NCBI GenBank assembly: GCA_017511005.1
Contig: JAFWLP010000018.1
Coordinates: 1 to 64,000, forward strand
DNA from: Clostridiales bacterium
Lineage (GTDB): Bacteria; Bacillota; Clostridia; Saccharofermentanales; Saccharofermentanaceae
Direction of reading: 5' to 3'
Length of the DNA stretch: 64,000 nucleotides
Shown: in pieces, positions 11,393 through 19,498 of the stretch
Numbering within the stretch: the first letter of the stretch is position 1
Layout of the letters: each line of letters opens with the position of its first letter
Translations under genes and position numbers: made by a program
Notes under the pieces: model-generated
Database searches by the model: none
Told to the model about the DNA's origin: nothing
Seen by the model: the letters and a program-made list of their open reading frames with translations, nothing else

Positions 11393-12268
11393 TTATCCGA
11401 AAAGAGGTACTACCGCACCGTCGTATGTATCCTCGATGAACTTTGCGACTTCTGGTCCCTGAAGTACTTCTACGAGTGTCTTTATTGCCGGATCGTCAGC
11501 CTTTGCAGGTGATGTTGCGATAATGTTTCCGTATGTCTGTGCAGCAAGACCGTCATTAGCCTCAACTGCGAGTGCCTGGCTTACGTGAAGTCCGCCCTCG
11601 ATCGCGTAGTTACCGTTAATAACCGCAACGTCGACGTCAGGAAGCGCTGCAACGAGCTGCTCGGGTGCAAGTTCCTTGAACTGGATGTTGAGAGGATTCT
11701 CAATGATATCTTCCACAGTGGCATTGATGCCTGCACCGTCCTTGAGCTTGAGGAGTCCTTCCTGGGCGAGGAGCAGCAAAGCTCTTGCTTCATTCGTTAC
11801 GTTGTTGGGTACTGCAATTACGGCTCCTTCTTTAAGATCCTTAAGGTCCTTTACCCTGCCTGCATAGATTCCGAACGGTTCATAGTGAACTGCGCCTACT
11901 GATACGAGATCGGAACCGTTCTCAAGATTGAACTGGTCAAGGTAAGGAACGTGCTGGAAATAGTTCGCGTCAAGTGATCCTTCGATAACGCCTGTATTAG
12001 GTGTGACTGAATCCTCAAGTCTTATGATCTCAAGCGTGATGCCTTTCTCTGCGAGGATCGGCTTTGCGACTTCGAGGATCTCCGAATGGGGTGTGATGTT
12101 AGCGCCTACCTTGAGCACCGTGTTCTCAGCCTTTGCTTCCGTCTGTGCGTCACTAGCTACTGTGGCTGCATCAACTCTTGTTCCGGTTGTCTGAGCGCAT
12201 GCAGCAAGTGATCCTGTAATTGCGAGTAAAAGTCCTGCGGCTATTGCCTTCTTAAATATGTTCTTCAT
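11393..12268 (-). CDS. metQ: Methionine ABC transporter substrate-binding lipoprotein
   Basis: An NlpA/MetQ-family protein that captures methionine outside the membrane for the MetNI importer. It has a lipobox LAAC (Cys24), the N-terminal strand LKVGANITPHSEIL, the conserved NYFQHVPYLDQFN and AVPNNVTNEARALLLL, and NGNYAIEGG, all typical of MetQ. Length (291) is normal for the family plus its signal. It is separated from metN and metI by its own promoter, a Cys-rich leader frame and a terminator, so the binding protein is controlled independently of the permease but by the same kind of signal. AAGGAG stands ahead of the start. Confidence 0.92.
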   Translation of the reverse strand: MKNIFKKAIAAGLLLAITGSLAACAQTTGTRVDAATVASDAQTEAKAENTVLKVGANITPHSEILEVAKPILAEKGITLEIIRLEDSVTPNTGVIEGSLDANYFQHVPYLDQFNLENGSDLVSVGAVHYEPFGIYAGRVKDLKDLKEGAVIAVPNNVTNEARALLLLAQEGLLKLKDGAGINATVEDIIENPLNIQFKELAPEQLVAALPDVDVAVINGNYAIEGGLHVSQALAVEANDGLAAQTYGNIIATSPAKADDPAIKTLVEVLQGPEVAKFIEDTYDGAVVPLFG

Positions 12269-12336
12269 TTTTAGTAATCTCCTTAGAATTTGTTTTATGT
12301 ATTGTTTTTGCTTTAAGAATGATTTTTGTCAGGCAT

Positions 12337-12371
12337 AAAAATGCCCGGCGAGCTGATTCAACTCCCGGGCA
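12337..12371 (-). terminator. Attenuator terminator in the metQ leader
   Basis: On the minus strand TGCCCGG-GAG and CTC-G-CCGGGCA form a 10-bp stem with one bulged G and a 9-nt loop, followed by TTTTT (12341-12337). It lies about 70 bp before metQ, downstream of a Cys/Met-rich leader frame. The 5' arm can alternatively pair with CTCCCGGGTGC at 12472-12462 inside the leader frame (11 bp, two of them G-U), which would prevent termination. This is therefore a regulated terminator. Confidence 0.8.
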
Positions 12372-12402
12372 CATGGCATATGTTCAATTGCATATTACTG
12401 CT

Positions 12403-12525
12403 TTAACATCGATCGTTCTCAAGGCGTGAGGAATGACTTCTTACGCCCTGGGCCATTTCGCGCACCCGGGAGCCAAGCATTCGACAACACATCATGCTAA
12501 CTGTTGTATTAATTGTTCTGTACAT
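12403..12525 (-). CDS. Cys/Met leader peptide of the metQ operon (40 aa)
   Basis: A short frame with an excellent ribosome binding site (AAAGGAGG, with the ATG at 12525) that starts about 25 nt after the predicted transcription start and ends with TAA at 12403. Codons 10-16 read S-M-M-C-C-R-M; the final residue is also Cys. Eleven nucleotides after the second tandem TGT codon lies CTCCCGGGTGC, the strand that can pair with the 5' arm of the terminator. A ribosome waiting at the Cys codons would leave that strand free and allow read-through into metQ; a moving ribosome would cover it. An additional hairpin (GGCGT/ACGCC) lies near the end of the frame. The peptide itself probably has no function beyond being translated. 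Confidence 0.75.
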   Translation of the reverse strand: MYRTINTTVSMMCCRMLGSRVREMAQGVRSHSSRLENDRC

Positions 12526-12556
12526 TTCTCACTCCTCCTTTCGTTGTGATGGCGAT

Positions 12557-12592
12557 ACTTTACTCCTATTTGCCTACTATGTCAATAGGTTA
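12557..12592 (-). promoter_or_regulatory. metQ promoter overlapped by Rrf2-type operator
   Basis: On the minus strand TTGACA (12585-12580), a 17-bp spacer and TAAAGT (12562-12557). The 17-bp operator CCTATTGACATAGTAGG (12589-12573) covers the -35 and part of the spacer, so a bound repressor would block RNA polymerase. The same operator occurs ahead of mccB, iscS and the rrf2 gene. Confidence 0.8.
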
Positions 12593-12656
12593 TTTGAAAT
12601 ATTTTTCTGCCTTTCAAAAATCCGGTTCTCAGTTTGTCAACTGATGGATCCCGTAT

Positions 12657-12785
12657 GGTTTCCTTTTGCGTTGACTTTCGATGAAAGTCAACCATTTTGT
12701 CAACTTGAAAACCCTATCAGGTTTCCTTTTCGCGGACCACAGATGTTTAACAGCACATCGTGGTTCATTTTCCTTTTCGCGGACC
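12657..12785. repeat. Short repeats and hairpins between ecfS and the metQ promoter
   Basis: A perfect 17-bp direct repeat, TTTCCTTTTCGCGGACC, occurs at 12722-12738 and 12769-12785; a shorter copy TTTCCTTTTGCG is at 12659-12670. Between the copies lie two hairpins: ACCAC...GTGGT (12736-12764) and the perfect 10-bp stem GTTGACTTTC/GAAAGTCAAC (12670-12692). No frame or good U-tract terminator is seen. The function is unknown; it may be a small repetitive intergenic element that also ends transcription of the upstream operon. Confidence 0.5.
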
Positions 12786-12805
12786 GTATTTAATCAATTA
12801 CAAGT

Positions 12806-13360
12806 TCAGGATACAGCCGTCTTACGCTCATCTTTACGGACTTCACTTTCCCTGTATCTCTCGAAAAGCTTAATGTACATAATAGGCACTGCTCCTACAA
12901 TTGCCGCGCTTGCCTGGATCCCGTTGGGAATGACCGAACCCAAAGCTGCTTCAACACCATACATGAACGGCAGGGATTCGAATGCAAAGTAACCGGCGAT
13001 CATGATCAGCTCCGCAATGAAAGAAACAATGATCTTGCGGATGAGTGATGTCTTACCCTGAGCATTCCTCTTAAGCAGTATTCCGGCAACTAGCCCCATG
13101 ATCCCTTTGATCAGAAATGTTGCAACCGCGTACTGCGGGTAACCCGCAAGAAGATCTGCAAGCGTGGAACCTATGGCAGCGGGGAAAAACGCAACAGGCC
13201 CAAGCAAGTATGAACTTACCAGTATCAGCACGTCGCCGAGATTGATGTGACCGATCGCAGTCGGTATGTGAAGTTCCGTTCCAACAAAGACCAGTGCCGC
13301 AAGCACGCCGGAATACGCTATCTTCCTTAAGTTGTTTTTATAATCTGCTCTATTGTTCAT
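12806..13360 (-). CDS. ECF transporter substrate-binding (S) component
   Basis: A protein of about 184 residues with five to six hydrophobic segments and the S-component pattern: an N-terminal helix with AYSGVLAALVFVGTEL, then GHINLGDVLILVSSYLLGP and FFPAAIGSTLADLLAGY. S components bind a vitamin, metal or similar small molecule and share an energising EcfAAT module, none of which is in this window. The frame extends to 13411 within metI, but GGAG lies 9 nt before the ATG at 13360, so I chose that start. It is the last gene after metI in the mccB operon. By context its substrate may relate to sulfur amino acid metabolism; the sequence does not show which. Confidence 0.8.
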   Translation of the reverse strand: MNNRADYKNNLRKIAYSGVLAALVFVGTELHIPTAIGHINLGDVLILVSSYLLGPVAFFPAAIGSTLADLLAGYPQYAVATFLIKGIMGLVAGILLKRNAQGKTSLIRKIIVSFIAELIMIAGYFAFESLPFMYGVEAALGSVIPNGIQASAAIVGAVPIMYIKLFERYRESEVRKDERKTAVS

Positions 13361-13380
13361 ATTCTTATTCTCCATATTCT

Positions 13381-14034
13381 TTAGGTTTTTCTGTGTTTTT
13401 TTGACATCCATATTCCGAATTCCTGTATGAGCATCACCATGATTATCAGCAGCGTTACCGTAGTCCAGAGAACATCTTTCTGATAGCGGTAATAACCGTA
13501 CTGAAGTGCGATGGCTCCAAGACCGCCGCCGCCGATGACACCCGCCATTGCTGAATAACCGAGAACAGTGGCGACGTTTATTGCGCCGCCCTGAAGGAGC
13601 GAAGGCATTGCTTCGGGGATGATGAAATGCAGTATCGTGTATAAAGGCGACGCGCCCATTGAAGTTGCCGCCTCAATGATACCGGGCTGGACTTCATTCA
13701 GGGATGATTCAACCATCCTTGCAACGATCGGGATCGCACCGATGGTAAGAGGCACGATCGCTGCGGTTGTTCCGATGGACTGTCCGACCACAAATCTGGT
13801 AAACGGTATAAGTAATACCAGCAGGATCAGGAACGGCAATGAACGCGTGATATTCACGATGGTACCGATAACGAAATTGACACCGCGGTTCTCGAGCAGG
13901 CGGCCTTTGGATGTCGAATATAAAAGCACGCCCAAAGGCATTCCTATAAGGTACGAGAACAGCGATGCGAAGAACGTCATGATAAACGTCTCCCATACAC
14001 CAGTAACAATTGCTTCTCTTATGTAATCACTCAT
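13381..14034 (-). CDS. metI: Methionine ABC transporter permease
   Basis: The membrane subunit of the MetNIQ importer, 217 residues with five transmembrane segments. Conserved stretches include TFIMTFFASLFSYLIGMPLG near the N-terminus, NITRSLPFLILLV, and the cytoplasmic coupling loop EAATSMGASPLYTILHFIIPEA, which contacts MetN. It overlaps the end of metN by 8 bp, so the two are translationally coupled. Confidence 0.93.
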   Translation of the reverse strand: MSDYIREAIVTGVWETFIMTFFASLFSYLIGMPLGVLLYSTSKGRLLENRGVNFVIGTIVNITRSLPFLILLVLLIPFTRFVVGQSIGTTAAIVPLTIGAIPIVARMVESSLNEVQPGIIEAATSMGASPLYTILHFIIPEAMPSLLQGGAINVATVLGYSAMAGVIGGGGLGAIALQYGYYRYQKDVLWTTVTLLIIMVMLIQEFGIWMSKKHRKT

Positions 14035-15034
14035 TTCTGCTTACCTCCGATACGGAAAGTCCGCCTTTCCTGAAGAAATCGATAACAGTCTGACGGTCTT
14101 TTGCAAGAACGGGAAGTTCTATGATCATCTGACCGTAACCGATGCCTCCGACGCTCCTCGTATTAGCGCTCAGGATATTCACCTTCAGTCCCGTTTCTTC
14201 GACAAGGTTTGCGATGAACGGCACATTGGACTGCGTTCCGTCGAAAACGATCCTCACCAGCTGTCCGTTATCATCCGAAGGATCAAAAGGATTGCTTGGG
14301 AACACGAGTTTCTTCGCGGCCTTCGACTGCGGATTCGAGAATACTTCCTTCACTTCACCGATCTCGGCAAGATTGCCGTCATCAATGATGGCGACGCGGT
14401 CACATATCTTCTCGACGACACTCATCTCATGAGTGATGATAATTATCGTCAGTTTTCTTTCATCGTTTATCTTCTTCAACAGGTCTAATATCTCACCTGT
14501 GATCTTCGGATCCAACGCGCTTGTCGCTTCATCACACAAAAGGACTTTGGGATCAACTGCCAGCGCTCTTGCTATCGCCACTCTCTGTTTCTGGCCTCCT
14601 GAAAGACGCGCAGGGTATTCATTTGCTTTCTCGGAAAGTCCGACGATCTCAAGCATCTGCTTAGCTTTCTCACGGCGTGCGGCACGCGGTGTCCCGATGA
14701 TCTTCAGTGACTGCTCAACGTTCTGAATCACCGTACGCTGATTGATGAGATTGAAGCCCTGGAAGATCATGGAGATCGAGTGACGCACTTCCCTCAGCTC
14801 GCGCGCCTTCAGCTTCGCAAGATCTTTTCCGTAGAAACTGACTGTTCCCGAAGATACTTCCTCAAGGCGGTTAAGGGTCCTTACCAGAGTGGACTTGCCC
14901 GCACCGCTCATGCCGATTATTCCGAAGATCTCACCTTCACGGACTTCAAGGCTCACGTCCTTGAGCGCCGTGAATTCCTTTCCGTCGTTCTTGTATGTCT
15001 TATATACGTTTGTCAGTTCAAAGACATTGCTCAT
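14027..15034 (-). CDS. metN: Methionine ABC transporter ATP-binding protein
   Basis: The ATPase of the MetNIQ importer, 335 residues. Walker A is GMSGAGKST (near residue 42), the signature is LSGGQKQR, and Walker B is VLLCDEATSALD. The C-terminal region (about 255-335) matches the NIL/ACT-like domain through which methionine inhibits the transporter, so import should be subject to feedback. The start lies directly against the stop of the upstream cystathionine synthase gene. The gene sits in the order mccB-mccA-metN-metI. Confidence 0.94.
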   Translation of the reverse strand: MSNVFELTNVYKTYKNDGKEFTALKDVSLEVREGEIFGIIGMSGAGKSTLVRTLNRLEEVSSGTVSFYGKDLAKLKARELREVRHSISMIFQGFNLINQRTVIQNVEQSLKIIGTPRAARREKAKQMLEIVGLSEKANEYPARLSGGQKQRVAIARALAVDPKVLLCDEATSALDPKITGEILDLLKKINDERKLTIIIITHEMSVVEKICDRVAIIDDGNLAEIGEVKEVFSNPQSKAAKKLVFPSNPFDPSDDNGQLVRIVFDGTQSNVPFIANLVEETGLKVNILSANTRSVGGIGYGQMIIELPVLAKDRQTVIDFFRKGGLSVSEVSRNE

Positions 15035-15949
15035 TTATTCATACAATCCTTTGCTCAAATATCTGTCACCCCTGTCAGGGAAGACAGTTACGATGTTGCC
15101 GGAACCGATCTCCTCAGCGAGCTTCATCGAAGCTGCAAGTGCCGCTCCGGAAGATGAACCTGCAAGGATGCCTTCGTTCCTCGCGAGGAGCCTGCTCATC
15201 TCGAACGCTTCATCATCATTGACCTTGATCACTTTATCAACCAACGTGATATCCATCGTGTCGGCAATGAAATCATTGCCGATTCCTTCTATGTTGTAAT
15301 CGAAATGCTCTCCGCCTCCGATCGTTGATCCGTACGGGTCAGCGAGCACTCCTTTGATATCCGGATCCTGTTCCTTAAGGTATTTGACGACCCCGGTGAA
15401 TGTTCCGCCGCTTCCTGCGCCTGCTACAAAGTAATCGATCTTTCCGTCAAGCTGGGAGTAGATCTCAGGACCTGTCGTCTCGTAATGTGCGAGAGGATTT
15501 GCCGGATTTCTGAACTGTCTTAAAGAGACAGAGCCTTCGATCCGGCTTAACAGTTCTTCGGCTTTCCGCTCTGCTCCGAGCATTCCTTCTTCTCTTGATG
15601 TATGTACTATTTCCGCGCCGAGGGCGCGCATCACCTGCTGCTTCTCGATCGAGAATTTCTCTGGAACGGTGAATATAACGCGCACGCCCTGGTTGAGGGC
15701 AGCAACGGCTATTCCGATTCCTGTATTGCCGGCTGTGGCATCTACGATCGTTCCGCCGTCTTTTAATATTCCGCGCTTTTTCGCATCATCGATCATGTAG
15801 ACGCCGACACGGTCTTTAACGCTTCCGGCAGGGTTCATGAGTTCAAGTTTTGCATAGATATTTACTCCGGGCCTGACGCCCATATGATTGAGCTTAAGTA
15901 CCGGCGTATTGCCGATCATGCCTCTGATGTCTTCATATACGTTCTTCAT
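15035..15949 (-). CDS. mccA: O-acetylserine-dependent cystathionine beta-synthase / cysteine synthase (MccA type)
   Basis: A fold type II PLP enzyme of 304 residues. The PLP lysine is Lys45 in NPAGSVKDR; the substrate loop reads DATAGNTGIG, and the C-terminal SSSGAALAA is present. In MccA enzymes O-acetylserine and homocysteine give cystathionine; in CysK enzymes sulfide gives cysteine. I favour MccA because it follows an MccB-type lyase by 15 bp, the arrangement known from Bacillus subtilis. Together they turn methionine-derived homocysteine into cysteine. CysK cannot be excluded from sequence alone. Confidence 0.85.
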   Translation of the reverse strand: MKNVYEDIRGMIGNTPVLKLNHMGVRPGVNIYAKLELMNPAGSVKDRVGVYMIDDAKKRGILKDGGTIVDATAGNTGIGIAVAALNQGVRVIFTVPEKFSIEKQQVMRALGAEIVHTSREEGMLGAERKAEELLSRIEGSVSLRQFRNPANPLAHYETTGPEIYSQLDGKIDYFVAGAGSGGTFTGVVKYLKEQDPDIKGVLADPYGSTIGGGEHFDYNIEGIGNDFIADTMDITLVDKVIKVNDDEAFEMSRLLARNEGILAGSSSGAALAASMKLAEEIGSGNIVTVFPDRGDRYLSKGLYE

Positions 15950-15964
15950 GTGTCATTACCTTCT

Positions 15965-17128
15965 TCACTTAGCTGAATTCTCGATAGCCTGCTTAAGATC
16001 TTCGATAAGATCATCGACGTCTTCGATACCGACGGAGAGTCTTATCAGTTCGTCAACGATGCCTACTTCCTTCCTGATATCAGCGGGGATTGCGGCATGC
16101 GTCATAGAAGCGGGATGACATACGAGTGATTCAACACCGCCAAGGCTTTCAGCCAATGTAATGACATTAAGTGATTCGAAAAACTTCTTATAATCGTATC
16201 TGTCGTCAAGTACAAAAGAGATCATTGCGCCGGCACCGTCAGCCTGCTTTCTCTGGATCTCATAACCGGGATCGGACTCAAGACCGGGATAATAGACCTT
16301 GCTGACATATCCGCTCTCATTAAGCCATCTTGCGATCTTCCCTGCGTTTGCAACATGTCTGTCCATACGGACGCCGAGAGTCTTGATACCTCTGATGATG
16401 AGGAAGCTGTCCCAGGGAGCGAGTACTCCTCCGATGGCGTTCTGGAGATAATAAAGACGGTCGGCAAGAGCCTTGTCCTTTACAACGACAAAGCCTGAGA
16501 TCGTGTCGGAATGACCTCCGAGATACTTGGTGCCGCTGTGGATAACGATATCTGCGCCCAAGGTCAGAGGACGCTGCAGATAAGGTGTGAGAAATGTGTT
16601 GTCGACGATAACGAGCTTGTCGTGCTTTCTCGCGATCTTGGAGACTGCTTCGATATCGGTAACCGTGAGGAGCGGATTTGCGGGTGTCTCGATATAGACA
16701 GCTTTTACATCGTCATCGATGGCATTTTCGACCGCTTCAAGATCAGAAGTGTTTACGATCTTGTATGTGATATTGAAGTTCTTGAAAACGTTATCGAGGA
16801 TCCTGAACGTTCCGCCGTAGATGTTGTCGGATACGACAAGCTTGTCACCGCTCTTGAAGTATGAGAGGACAGTGTTGATGGCTGCAAGTCCTGATGCGAA
16901 TGCAAGACCGTATTCGCCCTGCTCAAGGTCTGCGATCAGCTTCTCCAGAGCGGCTCTGGTCGGATTGCCTGTTCTTGAGTATTCCCAGCCTCTGTTCTTT
17001 CCAAGACCGTCCTGCTTATATGTCGATGTCTGATAGACAGGAACATTGACCGCACCGGTCGTCTCATCTCCGTCAATGCCGCCGTGTATAAGTAATGAAT
17101 TAAGTTTAAGATCATTTTTGTTGCTCAT
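15965..17128 (-). CDS. mccB: Cystathionine gamma-lyase / homocysteine gamma-lyase (MccB type)
   Basis: A Cys/Met-metabolism PLP enzyme of 387 residues. The PLP lysine is Lys201 in HSGTKYLGGHSD; other family marks are YSRTGNPTR, ASGLAAI, IETPANPLL and VDNTFLTPYLQRPL. It splits cystathionine to cysteine, 2-oxobutyrate and ammonia, completing reverse transsulfuration with the MccA-type partner. It is the first structural gene after a long leader that holds a Cys-rich reading frame and a terminator, so its expression should rise when cysteine is scarce. GGGAG lies 10 nt before the ATG. Confidence 0.9.
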   Translation of the reverse strand: MSNKNDLKLNSLLIHGGIDGDETTGAVNVPVYQTSTYKQDGLGKNRGWEYSRTGNPTRAALEKLIADLEQGEYGLAFASGLAAINTVLSYFKSGDKLVVSDNIYGGTFRILDNVFKNFNITYKIVNTSDLEAVENAIDDDVKAVYIETPANPLLTVTDIEAVSKIARKHDKLVIVDNTFLTPYLQRPLTLGADIVIHSGTKYLGGHSDTISGFVVVKDKALADRLYYLQNAIGGVLAPWDSFLIIRGIKTLGVRMDRHVANAGKIARWLNESGYVSKVYYPGLESDPGYEIQRKQADGAGAMISFVLDDRYDYKKFFESLNVITLAESLGGVESLVCHPASMTHAAIPADIRKEVGIVDELIRLSVGIEDVDDLIEDLKQAIENSAK

Positions 17129-17161
17129 TTTATTTATTCTCCCGTTAAATTATTTTGAAAT

Positions 17162-17192
17162 AAAAAGCCCGGCGCTTTATTCAGCTCCGGGC
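17162..17192 (-). terminator. Attenuator terminator in the mccB leader
   Basis: On the minus strand GCCCGG and CCGGGC (17192-17167) form a 6-bp GC stem extended past an A-G mismatch by two more pairs, followed by TTTTT (17166-17162). Its 5' arm TGCCCG (17193-17188) is complementary to CGGGCA (17263-17258) inside the leader frame, which gives a mutually exclusive antiterminator. The hairpin resembles the one ahead of metQ in both sequence and position. Confidence 0.8.
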
Positions 17193-17218
17193 ATAAAGGA
17201 CATGAAGTCTGCATGATT

Positions 17219-17302
17219 CTATCTACATCGAACCATATCAAGACAGCAATGGTCAATTGCCCGTGCATACAATAAACAACAACACATGCACATCTTCATC
17301 AT
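17219..17302 (-). CDS. Cys-rich leader peptide of the mccB operon (27 aa)
   Basis: The frame starts at 17302 (or the next ATG at 17299), with GGAAGGAG 6-9 nt ahead, and ends with TAG at 17219. It begins MMKMCMCCCLL and contains seven Cys among 27 residues (positions 5, 7, 8, 9, 19, 20, 26) and five Met. Such a composition is far from chance. Twelve nucleotides after the third tandem TGT codon lies CGGGCA, which can pair with the 5' arm of the terminator. Ribosome pausing at the Cys codons would therefore favour antitermination and expression of mccB-mccA-metN-metI-ecfS. The predicted transcription start is about 28 nt upstream. Confidence 0.82.
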   Translation of the reverse strand: MMKMCMCCCLLYARAIDHCCLDMVRCR

Positions 17303-17336
17303 TACTGTCTCCTTCCGTTTCTCGAATATGGGTGTG

Positions 17337-17372
17337 ATTATAATTCTATTTACCTACCGTGTCAATAGGTTA
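17337..17372 (-). promoter_or_regulatory. mccB promoter overlapped by Rrf2-type operator
   Basis: On the minus strand TTGACA (17365-17360), a 17-bp spacer and TATAAT (17342-17337) give a near-perfect promoter. The operator CCTATTGACACGGTAGG (17369-17353) overlaps the -35 and spacer. It begins only 7 bp after the stop codon of iscU. Confidence 0.87.
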
Positions 17373-17378
17373 TTCTGA

Positions 17379-17768
17379 TCATTTTTCTTCTTTCTTTTCC
17401 TGTCTGCTCTCGTAATCCTTAAGAGCAGATTCGATGGCTTCCTGGGCCAGGACCGAACAGTGCATCTTGTAATCCGGAAGTCCGTCCAAAGCTTCTGCCA
17501 CAGCCTTGTTGGTAAGCTGTCTTGCCTCGGACACCGGCTTTCCCTTTATGAGCTCCGTAGCCATTGAGCTTGACGCGATCGCGCTTCCGCAGCCGAATGT
17601 CTCAAACTTGACGTCCTTAACGATATCATCCTCGATCTTAAGGTACATCTTCATTATGTCTCCGCACTTGGCGTTTCCGACCTCTCCGATCCCGTTTGCA
17701 TCCTCAAGAACGCCTACGTTTCTCGGGTTTCTGAAATGATCCATTACTTTCTCACTGTATAAAGCCAT
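17379..17768 (-). CDS. iscU: Fe-S cluster scaffold protein IscU/NifU-like
   Basis: A 129-residue scaffold on which [2Fe-2S] or [4Fe-4S] clusters are assembled from sulfur supplied by the desulfurase. The three cluster-binding cysteines are Cys35 (NAKCGD, with Asp37), Cys60 (FGCGSAIASSS) and Cys104 (HCSVLAQEAI). It lies 12 bp after iscS on the same strand, the standard clostridial iscS-iscU pair. No SufU-type insertion is evident, so the name iscU (nifU-like) fits better than sufU. Confidence 0.93.
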   Translation of the reverse strand: MALYSEKVMDHFRNPRNVGVLEDANGIGEVGNAKCGDIMKMYLKIEDDIVKDVKFETFGCGSAIASSSMATELIKGKPVSEARQLTNKAVAEALDGLPDYKMHCSVLAQEAIESALKDYESRQEKKEEK

Positions 17769-18998: not shown

Positions 18999-19035
18999 AT
19001 CTTAATTCCTATTTCCTACTGTGTCAATAGGTTTA
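18999..19035 (-). promoter_or_regulatory. iscS promoter overlapped by Rrf2-type operator
   Basis: On the minus strand TTGACA (19027-19022), a 17-bp spacer and TAAGAT (19004-18999). The operator CCTATTGACACAGTAGG (19031-19015) covers the -35 and part of the spacer. Unlike mccB and metQ, this transcript has almost no leader, so it should lack the cysteine attenuator and respond only to the DNA-binding regulator. Confidence 0.85.
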
Positions 19036-19040
19036 TTGTC

Positions 19041-19075
19041 TTGATTTACCCTTTTGCCTACTGTTATAATAGGTA
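19041..19075 (+). promoter_or_regulatory. rrf2 promoter with internal operator
   Basis: TTGATT (19041-19046), an 18-bp spacer and TATAAT (19065-19070) form the promoter of the regulator gene. The operator CCTACTGTTATAATAGG (19057-19073) covers the -10, which points to autorepression. Its centre is 42 bp, about four helical turns, from the iscS operator on the other side. Confidence 0.83.
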
Positions 19076-19102: not shown

Positions 19103-19498
19103 ATGATCTCAACAAAAGGCAGATATGGTCTGCGCGTTATGATAGATCTGGCTCAAAACGACAATGGCAGCTATATTCCTCTTAAGGATATTGCCGACCG
19201 CCAGGAGATCTCCAAAAAATATCTGGAGATCATAATGAAGAAGATGGTAGACGGCGGACTCGTAAAAGGTTCAAGCGGCAAAGGCGGCGGTTACAAACTG
19301 GTAAAGAAGCCCGAGAAGTATTCCGTAGGCGAGATAATAACGCTCATGGAAGGCACCATCTCATCTGTTGCCTGTCTCGCAGACAAGAACTATGAATGTC
19401 CCCGGAGGAAAAAATGCGAGACGCTTCCCATTTGGAAGGAATTTGACGGCATAATCCATGACTACCTTTACAGCAAGAAATTAAGCGATCTGCTGTGA
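19103..19498 (+). CDS. Rrf2-family transcriptional regulator (IscR/CymR-like)
   Basis: A 131-residue winged-helix regulator. It opens with MISTKGRYGLRVMIDLA, typical of the family, with the recognition helix near KYLEIIMKKM and the wing in GSSGKGGGYKL. It has Cys91, Cys99 and Cys105 (C-x7-C-x5-C), close to the cluster ligands of IscR (C-x5-C-x5-C), so it may bind an Fe-S cluster; CymR, the cysteine repressor of Bacillus, works without one. It is divergent from iscS. Four matching operators at its own promoter and those of iscS, mccB and metQ define its likely regulon in this window. Confidence 0.88.
   Translation: MISTKGRYGLRVMIDLAQNDNGSYIPLKDIADRQEISKKYLEIIMKKMVDGGLVKGSSGKGGGYKLVKKPEKYSVGEIITLMEGTISSVACLADKNYECPRRKKCETLPIWKEFDGIIHDYLYSKKLSDLL

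Follow-up and report, generated by a model that had tools for sequence, protein, structure and literature searches.

A putative cysteine-responsive transcription attenuator family upstream of sulfur amino acid genes in Clostridia

The window, by which we mean the whole 64,000-nucleotide stretch of Clostridiales DNA that was analysed, contains on its minus strand the genes mccB-mccA-metN-metI-ecfS, and further on metQ. Two copies of a leader element were found here, one upstream of mccB (element 1) and one upstream of metQ (element 2). The genes concerned are as follows.

15965..17128, minus strand: mccB-like Cys/Met PLP enzyme of the cystathionine gamma-lyase/synthase family
15035..15949, minus strand: cysK/mccA-like cysteine synthase/CBS
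14027..15034, minus strand: metN
13381..14034, minus strand: metI
12806..13411, minus strand: ECF-type S component (PF07155)
11393..12268, minus strand: metQ (NlpA lipoprotein), the gene behind element 2

Upstream of element 1 lie iscU and iscS on the same strand and a divergent gene for an Rrf2-type regulator (19103-19498), which resembles IscR and CymR and scores below both cut-offs. The interval between the ECF gene and element 2 (12630-12785) holds direct repeats, with 17 identical nucleotides (TTTCCTTTTCGCGGACC) occurring twice, as well as a 38-nt repeat pair that is 71% alike.

Element 1 consists of a promoter, a short leader ORF and a terminator, within which the strands of three predicted helices (terminator, antiterminator and P1) can be placed.

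17353-17370, minus strand: ACCTATTGACACGGTAGG, within which the -35 of promoter 1 lies
17337..17365, minus strand: promoter 1, TTGACA-17-TATAAT, 12/12 to consensus (promoter scan)
17303..17314, minus strand: leader 1 SD, AAGGAGACAGTA, with core AAGGAG; also the 5' strand of P1
17219..17302, minus strand: leader 1 ORF MMKMCMCCCLLYARAIDHCCLDMVRCR, 27 codons, seven of them Cys
17276..17284, minus strand: tandem Cys codons TGT TGT TGT, the proposed stall site
17258..17263, minus strand: core CGGGCA of the antiterminator 5' strand; the predicted helix extends downstream
17240..17249, minus strand: P1 3' strand TTGCTGTCTT, the pairing partner of the leader 1 SD
17193-17188, minus strand: TGCCCG, the terminator 5' arm, doubling as the antiterminator 3' strand
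17167..17193, minus strand: terminator 1 stem-loop (folding)
17157..17166, minus strand: terminator 1 U tract (sequence)

A preliminary description of this DNA had claimed a 27-codon frame with seven Cys codons behind a ribosome site, a GC-rich hairpin and U tract after it, and a CGGGCA (17263-17258) that lies 12 nt past the third tandem TGT (17278-17276) and is complementary to TGCCCG (17193-17188). We found the frame and its ribosome site where they had been placed on the minus strand, the spacing and the complementarity hold in the sequence, and direct folding reproduced the hairpin with its U tract. The hairpin GCCCGGAGCTGAATAAAGCGCCGGGC at 17192-17167 followed by TTTTTATTTC gave -17.4 kcal on direct folding, and extension by one base gave -18.6 kcal (z -4.8 relative to shuffles). 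This terminator, which can be read as GCCCGGAGCUGAAUAAAGCGCCGGGC-U5 upstream of mccB, was missing from a simple terminator scan and was recovered by direct folding. The element 1 leader as a whole had a folding z of -3.5.

Element 2 (12590-12337, minus strand), which the preliminary description did not contain, has the same kinds of parts.

12557..12590, minus strand: promoter 2, TTGACA (12585-12580), 17 nt, TAAAGT, inside and after ACCTATTGACATAGTAGG (-10 read by eye)
12403..12525, minus strand: leader 2 ORF MYRTINTTVSMMCCRMLGSRVREMAQGVRSHSSRLENDRC, with SD GGAGG
12362..12492, minus strand: element 2 as matched by covariance model R1 (E 4.8e-15)
12341..12372, minus strand: terminator 2 stem-loop, -22.5 kcal, then TTTTA (folding)

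Its antiterminator, with pairings assigned by eye, would join CTCCCGGG and ATGGC to CCCGGGAG and GCCAT. Because this second element precedes metQ, the binding protein of the transporter appears to stand behind a separate copy of the switch.

A near-palindrome, ACCTATTGACAnnGTAGG, covers the -35 box of both attenuator promoters (12573-12590 and 17353-17370) and occurs twice between iscS and the Rrf2-type gene (19015-19032 and 19057-19074), all on the minus strand. With up to three mismatches allowed, the window has 4 matches vs 0.26 expected, and CCTA-N7-10-TAGG was found upstream of 141/170 elements in a pooled set, part of which was called by frame. On sequence grounds, the near-palindrome (CCTATTGACA..TAGG) is perhaps the operator of the Rrf2-type regulator.

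The conservation of the leader was evaluated by using the MccB protein as bait in 85 genomes of the genus and extracting the DNA upstream of its orthologs, of which 55 had at least 80% identity and at least 100 nt of upstream DNA. The leader caller, which demands an SD, a start and in-frame tandem Cys codons, found a leader in 53/55 orthologs, compared to a mean of 0.82/55 (maximum 3) for 50 dinucleotide shuffles of the upstream regions and 0/55 on the opposite strand. The 53 leaders comprise 48 distinct ORFs, with two tandem Cys codons in 33, three in 19 and four in 1. A terminator was called for 51/53, and in L037 and L040 inspection by eye shows a hairpin whose U tract is interrupted. The GGGC strand in its fixed pattern was present in 49/53; the leaders outside the pattern are L029 (GGGGCT) and L039, L044 and L058, which have other pairings. 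As for the two leaderless orthologs, mccB sits behind another gene in L057, and in L071 (assembly 75% complete) a 4-nt deletion relative to L045 shifts the Cys codons out of frame. In locus L061 (genome G040), the gene of an MccB with 65% identity is preceded by another kind of Cys-rich leader, MKTVMMTEKMTVCMCCCMNDNSKTVPYVLC, which has a terminator and lacks the CGGGC strand; it is perhaps a diverged or an independent attenuator.

To look beyond mccB, genome contigs were searched with the sequence pattern TGTTGTCGAATGN{6,12}GGGCN{15,45}CGATGT, for which about six matches are expected by chance according to our arithmetic. It was found that 87 stretches matched, and seven of these (L081, L097, L112, L122, L131, L134 and L144) were removed as lying outside Clostridia and lacking a leader. 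The other 80 came from Clostridia or Firmicutes, the carriers including Saccharofermentans, Butyrivibrio, Lachnospiraceae, Ruminococcaceae, Eubacterium and Mageeibacillus, among others. The Cys codons belong to the bait in this set and hence are no evidence there. A downstream gene was readable for 76/80 elements, the sequence being too short for a gene call in L088, L114, L116 and L140. These genes were 55 Cys/Met PLP enzymes, 13 + 1 ABC substrate-binding proteins (SBP_bac_3, MetQ and fusions such as L141), 2 SDF-family symporters, 2 cysK, 2 LysR and 1 MFS. In L141 (6208-7893) the gene behind the element is a fusion of SBP_bac_3 with a MetQ/NlpA binding protein, and in L149 an element-like leader without the usual terminator precedes an MFS gene and stays in the tally as an exception.

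A covariance model was built from alignment A1 and ends at the 5' arm of the terminator. For A1, 67 leaders were selected, leaving out near duplicates and L142, L149, L089, L085, L061, L114 and L146, and 65 were aligned, with the deviant L044 and L090 omitted. The model matched in 68/85 genomes of the genus and gave zero matches in the other 17/85. In the family of genome G210 it matched 9/248 genomes (5/107 genera), and class-wide 11/292 genomes (4/183 genera). The genome of the window has two matches, which are element 1 and 12362-12492 before metQ. The L255 match (33 nt) is probably due to chance, and a match in G047 (L002/L256) was taken as chance, there being no model match in L256 and no leader layout in the sequence.

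Eleven reference proteins served to classify 85/105 model matches, according to the one that the downstream ORF matched best; the remaining 20 were left unclassified, 19 as weak opposite-strand matches and one as a second match in L215 beside an N run. Most of the 85 had been chosen as not preceding an mccB ortholog, and some (L164, L178, L188, L236 and others) duplicate elements on which the model had been built, L167 being the second copy of the window. The genes behind them were MetQ in 57, OAH-sulfhydrylase types in 12, LysR in 7, MccB in 2, and MetN in 2. Five stayed unassigned: by eye, L160 has an amino-acid ABC permease and L201 a gene like the iron alcohol dehydrogenase of the window, and three, located at contig ends or in a fragment, lack an ORF. 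A terminator followed in 82/85, though its 3' arm and U tract lie outside the model. The element precedes a LysR-type gene in part of the genus (L124, L138, L236, L245-L247 and L249-L251, some of which are the same place), and this gene is possibly a further sulfur regulator. These searches indicate that beyond the genus the putative attenuator has a patchy distribution in Clostridia; the genes behind it are mostly metQ, metY-type, CGS/CGL and other sulfur genes.

Three competing helices received comparative support: the terminator, the antiterminator, in which the ORF strand CCCGGGC pairs with the terminator arm GCCCGGG, and P1, in which the SD region of the leader pairs with a segment further along the ORF (GGAGACAG/CTGTCTT, GGAGGCGG/CCGCCTC, GAGAAGCAG/CTGCTTC and others). 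P1 crosses the antiterminator, and therefore the two are mutually exclusive in nested folds. On A1 the antiterminator has 15 pairs with 77.6% of the cells paired, and its covariation was 0.181 vs 0.130 +/- 0.010 in shuffles (0/500), compared to 0.03-0.09 when the strands were slid. Compensatory variants are CGGACA or CGAACA with TGTTCG in L039 and L058 and CCCGGACA with TGTCCGGG in L161.

Strands were also exchanged between elements. In a cruder swap of whole antiterminator arms among 98 elements, own arms gave -29.2 kcal vs -25.9 kcal for swapped ones (mean rank of own 0.34), and among 99 elements own P1 strands gave -12.6 kcal vs -9.5 kcal, relatedness being uncontrolled in the latter comparison. 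With 48 disjoint pairs of nearest relatives, the P1 swap cost energy in 29 and helped in 10 (p 0.0017), and the antiterminator swap gave 30 to 11 (p 0.002). In pairs of 0.75-0.90 similarity, the P1 swap cost 2.4 kcal (188 to 58) and the antiterminator swap was near zero, at 0.4 kcal (144 positive, 117 negative). For the window, folding of the unoccupied 5' part gives a 12-pair P1 in which the start codon takes part, and folding of the RNA downstream of a ribosome placed at the Cys codons gives the antiterminator; neither fold is unusually stable (z -1.1 and -1.8, respectively). A further stem, noticed by eye, that would join UGUCGA of the Cys codons to UCGAUG close to the stop was dropped, because CGAATG is lost in the CCC forms and CGATGT stays.

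The effect of a stalled ribosome was simulated for 97 elements by folding the RNA ahead of a ribosome whose front was set 13 nt beyond the initial base of the A-site codon; the transcript was truncated at the 5' arm of the terminator. Without a ribosome, the mean antiterminator probability was 0.73 (>0.5 in 77% of the elements), with 0.02 for the window. With the front at Cys codon 2 it was 0.92 (>0.5 in 99%; window 0.83), and one codon past, 0.90 (window 0.86). Three codons (9 nt) past, it fell to 0.40, and five codons past, to 0.25, the window being at 0.00 in both cases; the value of zero at the stop codon is a consequence of the simulation set-up. Since the antiterminator forms without a ribosome in 77% of the 97, P1 is convincing as an off switch in the group of the window and weaker elsewhere. 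For complete transcripts at equilibrium, the mean terminator probability of 0.75 in the ribosome-free state fell to 0.47 when the ribosome was stalled at Cys codon 2 and was 0.93 when it stood three codons past, and in the window it was 0.99 in every ribosome state. The terminator thus wins at equilibrium in the window, where antitermination would need kinetics.

The reading frame was counted without the leader filter in the unique elements, 76 of the 80 found by pattern and 79 of the 85 found by the model. An SD-preceded ATG opened into the Cys frame in 75/79 model-found elements (no ATG in 4, another frame alone in 0) and in 67/76 pattern-found elements (frame 1 alone in 4, none in 5); when GTG and TTG starts were allowed, the values were 76/79 and 70/76, respectively. 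At the Cys site of the 79 model-found elements, codon 1 was TGT in 69, TGC in 5, ATG in 3 and TGG in 2, codon 2 was TGT in 76 and ATG, CGT and TTC in 1 each, and codon 3 was CGA in 78 and CAA in 1, counts that lean towards Cys because the model was trained on TGTTGT elements. Sites with a single Cys among the 79 were MWCRM (2), MMCRM (2), MCMRM (1), MCRRM (1) and CMFRM (1), and the distant copies L262, L263, L265 and L266, read by eye, also have one Cys (HCRMC, NCRMC, MCGRM and RCGRM), L266 being without a clear start codon and weak in model score. The CGA after the Cys pair and a CGA-TGT near the stop codon of many leaders lie outside the pairings that we found.

These third positions are nearly fixed. 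Codon 2 is TGT in 76/76 Cys cases and CGA follows in 78/79, whereas sixteen genes of the window use TGC 24 and TGT 18 times and have CGA, their rarest Arg codon, as 3/210. This indicates a constraint at the RNA level also at the Cys site, and it would suit a conserved UGUUGUCGAAUG that is mainly an RNA signal, either a protein or small RNA site or a polymerase pause, with the ORF incidental or keeping the RNA open. We consider such a signal improbable as the main explanation, given the opening of an SD-preceded ATG into the Cys frame in both sets, the change of Cys number by whole codons, the replacement of TGT by TGC at codon 1 and the absence of CGAATG from the CCC forms, including that of the window itself. 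The 3' part of the leader is also constrained as RNA: in L018 the frame over CGGGCA is shifted and CGGGCA is kept, and in L161 the stop codon comes immediately ahead of the antiterminator strand, where CCCGGACA persists outside the ORF. From these two cases, the best reading of the SRA and MAG residues in many Lachnospiraceae peptides is that they represent pairing strands.

The peptide itself might act, if MCCRM sensed a ligand or an antibiotic inside the ribosome and arrested it, and the strong conservation of this motif (67/79 model-found elements) would agree with that. The preceding peptide, however, varies in sequence and in length (start to Cys mostly 12-45 nt), CCCM, CCCT, CCCQ and CCCL forms occur, and the residues after the motif are accounted for by RNA pairing, so that nascent-peptide arrest seems very unlikely.

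In other Firmicutes, sulfur genes of this kind are controlled by T-boxes or S-boxes, and T-boxes and SAM riboswitches scored above cut-off elsewhere in 18/21 and 17/21 genomes, respectively. On that basis, the operon could be controlled by a T-box or SAM riboswitch that is of a type not yet listed, the ORF being there by chance, but Rfam models, RF00230 and RF00162 included, gave zero matches at gathering score over the window, and the T-box and SAM matches of the window genome all lie off this contig. At E up to 5, Rfam gave two matches in 12250-17450, both far below gathering scores, and on 14 further loci it matched once, to a group II intron that lies apart from the element in L111. The conserved leader largely refutes a riboswitch, to which we give scant credence. 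For the leader peptides, NCBIfam gave zero matches (four tried), and Pfam gave zero for the one of the window. That the hairpin, lying between iscU and mccB on the same strand, merely terminates the iscS-iscU operon is hardly conceivable, with a perfect promoter between iscU and the hairpin and the same element before metQ and other genes.

The element is therefore best read against the class of ribosome-mediated attenuators. Comparative sequence evidence establishes the conserved Cys frame, the three helices with covariation, the terminators and the gene contexts. Among the features that mark the class, we found an SD-led ORF with control codons, a terminator before the first gene and a terminator-exclusive antiterminator with covariation, the latter weaker in close pairs and in the whole-arm swap. 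In the folding simulation, P1 forms without translation and blocks the antiterminator in the window, and it fails to block it in 77% of the 97; in silico, a stall at Cys frees the antiterminator strand and later positions cover it. Very probably, then, the element attenuates transcription by a ribosome-mediated mechanism that responds to charged tRNA-Cys, and it belongs to a homologous family before sulfur amino acid genes.

We infer stalling, the charging of tRNA-Cys as the signal and the kinetics in the following model. With no ribosome on the leader, the SD and start would pair with the later ORF part as P1, holding the antiterminator strand in a loop, and transcription would end, making off the default. 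When cysteine is short and the leader is translated, a ribosome would halt on the tandem Cys codons with its front edge just before the antiterminator strand, which, thus freed, would capture the 5' arm of the terminator once that is transcribed. RNA polymerase would then read through into mccB-mccA-metN-metI-ecfS, or at the second copy into metQ, opening genes for methionine uptake and conversion to cysteine. When cysteine is plentiful, the ribosome would cover the antiterminator strand up to the stop codon, the terminator would fold and transcription would end.

The stall and antiterminator logic of the preliminary description is thus supported by the Cys frame in both sets, by the covariation and compensatory variants of the antiterminator stem, which it had named as a check, and by the terminators and gene context; Cys frames in relatives before mccB, likewise named there, were found in 53/55. 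That description was incomplete in having neither P1 nor the second copy nor the breadth of the family. A more elaborate scheme, which we put forward tentatively and hold to be rather doubtful, is an AND gate with the leader's own RBS as strand 1, needing both leader initiation and cysteine shortage, in which CGA would be a built-in pause at the antiterminator edge and the -35 near-palindrome shared with the Rrf2-type gene would add Fe-S or cysteine repression.

A recurring, patchy cysteine attenuator in rumen and gut Clostridia would allow the prediction of sulfur regulons in poorly studied anaerobes, and because its carriers include isolates such as Butyrivibrio, it is open to testing.

Amino acid genes of Firmicutes are usually said to be controlled by T-boxes and riboswitches, with leader-peptide attenuators being rare. 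One leader-peptide attenuator in this phylum is the His leader peptide before hisS/hisZ in Bacilli, whose authors in 2010, in the portion of their article available to us, knew of no precedent outside Proteobacteria and Actinobacteria (PMC2965389). It differs from the Clostridia element in its amino acid, histidine, in its host, Bacilli, and in its genes (PMC2965389).

The cys operons of Mycobacterium have Cys-rich leader peptides, and resemble our element in that a short uORF with Cys codons precedes sulfur genes (PMC1262725). According to the accessible parts of that article, they have no conserved terminator, a Cys run near the stop, a leaderless ORF and a translational mode (PMC1262725), whereas in the Clostridia element the ORF follows an SD, the Cys codons precede the antiterminator strand and there is an intrinsic terminator. 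The absence of an intrinsic terminator and the Cys run near the stop, by which mycobacterial polycysteine uORFs are recognized, do not describe the element of the window. Canestrari et al. (2020) are said to have dealt with such mycobacterial leaders.

In the literature surveyed, the closest Cys attenuator of the terminator type is a published candidate, uORFC-8-2 before cysS in Rhodobacterales, in which tandem Cys codons of a uORF are followed by an intrinsic terminator and ribosome-mediated attenuation is proposed (PMC8632094). As far as the available text of that article goes, uORFC-8-2 is found only with cysS, in alphaproteobacteria, and its Cys codons 14-15, mostly UGC, lie inside the first stem (PMC8632094). 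The Clostridia element differs in its UGU codons, its layout and its sulfur assimilation and transport genes, and cysS was absent from the assigned downstream genes (76/80 in the pattern set and 80/85 in the model set, for which cysS was not among the references). Within the literature surveyed, from which subscription papers and preprints were left aside and some articles were available in part, we found no description of this element, and on sequence we file it as a putative new family, distinct among the ribosome-mediated attenuators, a class already known.

Ribosome-mediated transcription attenuators of the trp/his/leu type are found in Proteobacteria. By layout, our element is like them in its leader ORF, its tandem control codons for the amino acid of the pathway, its three exclusive helices and its intrinsic terminator. 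Unlike them, it would have cysteine as the control amino acid, Clostridia as hosts and the leader's own SD and start as strand 1, an arrangement that is unusual and yields a clear mechanistic prediction.
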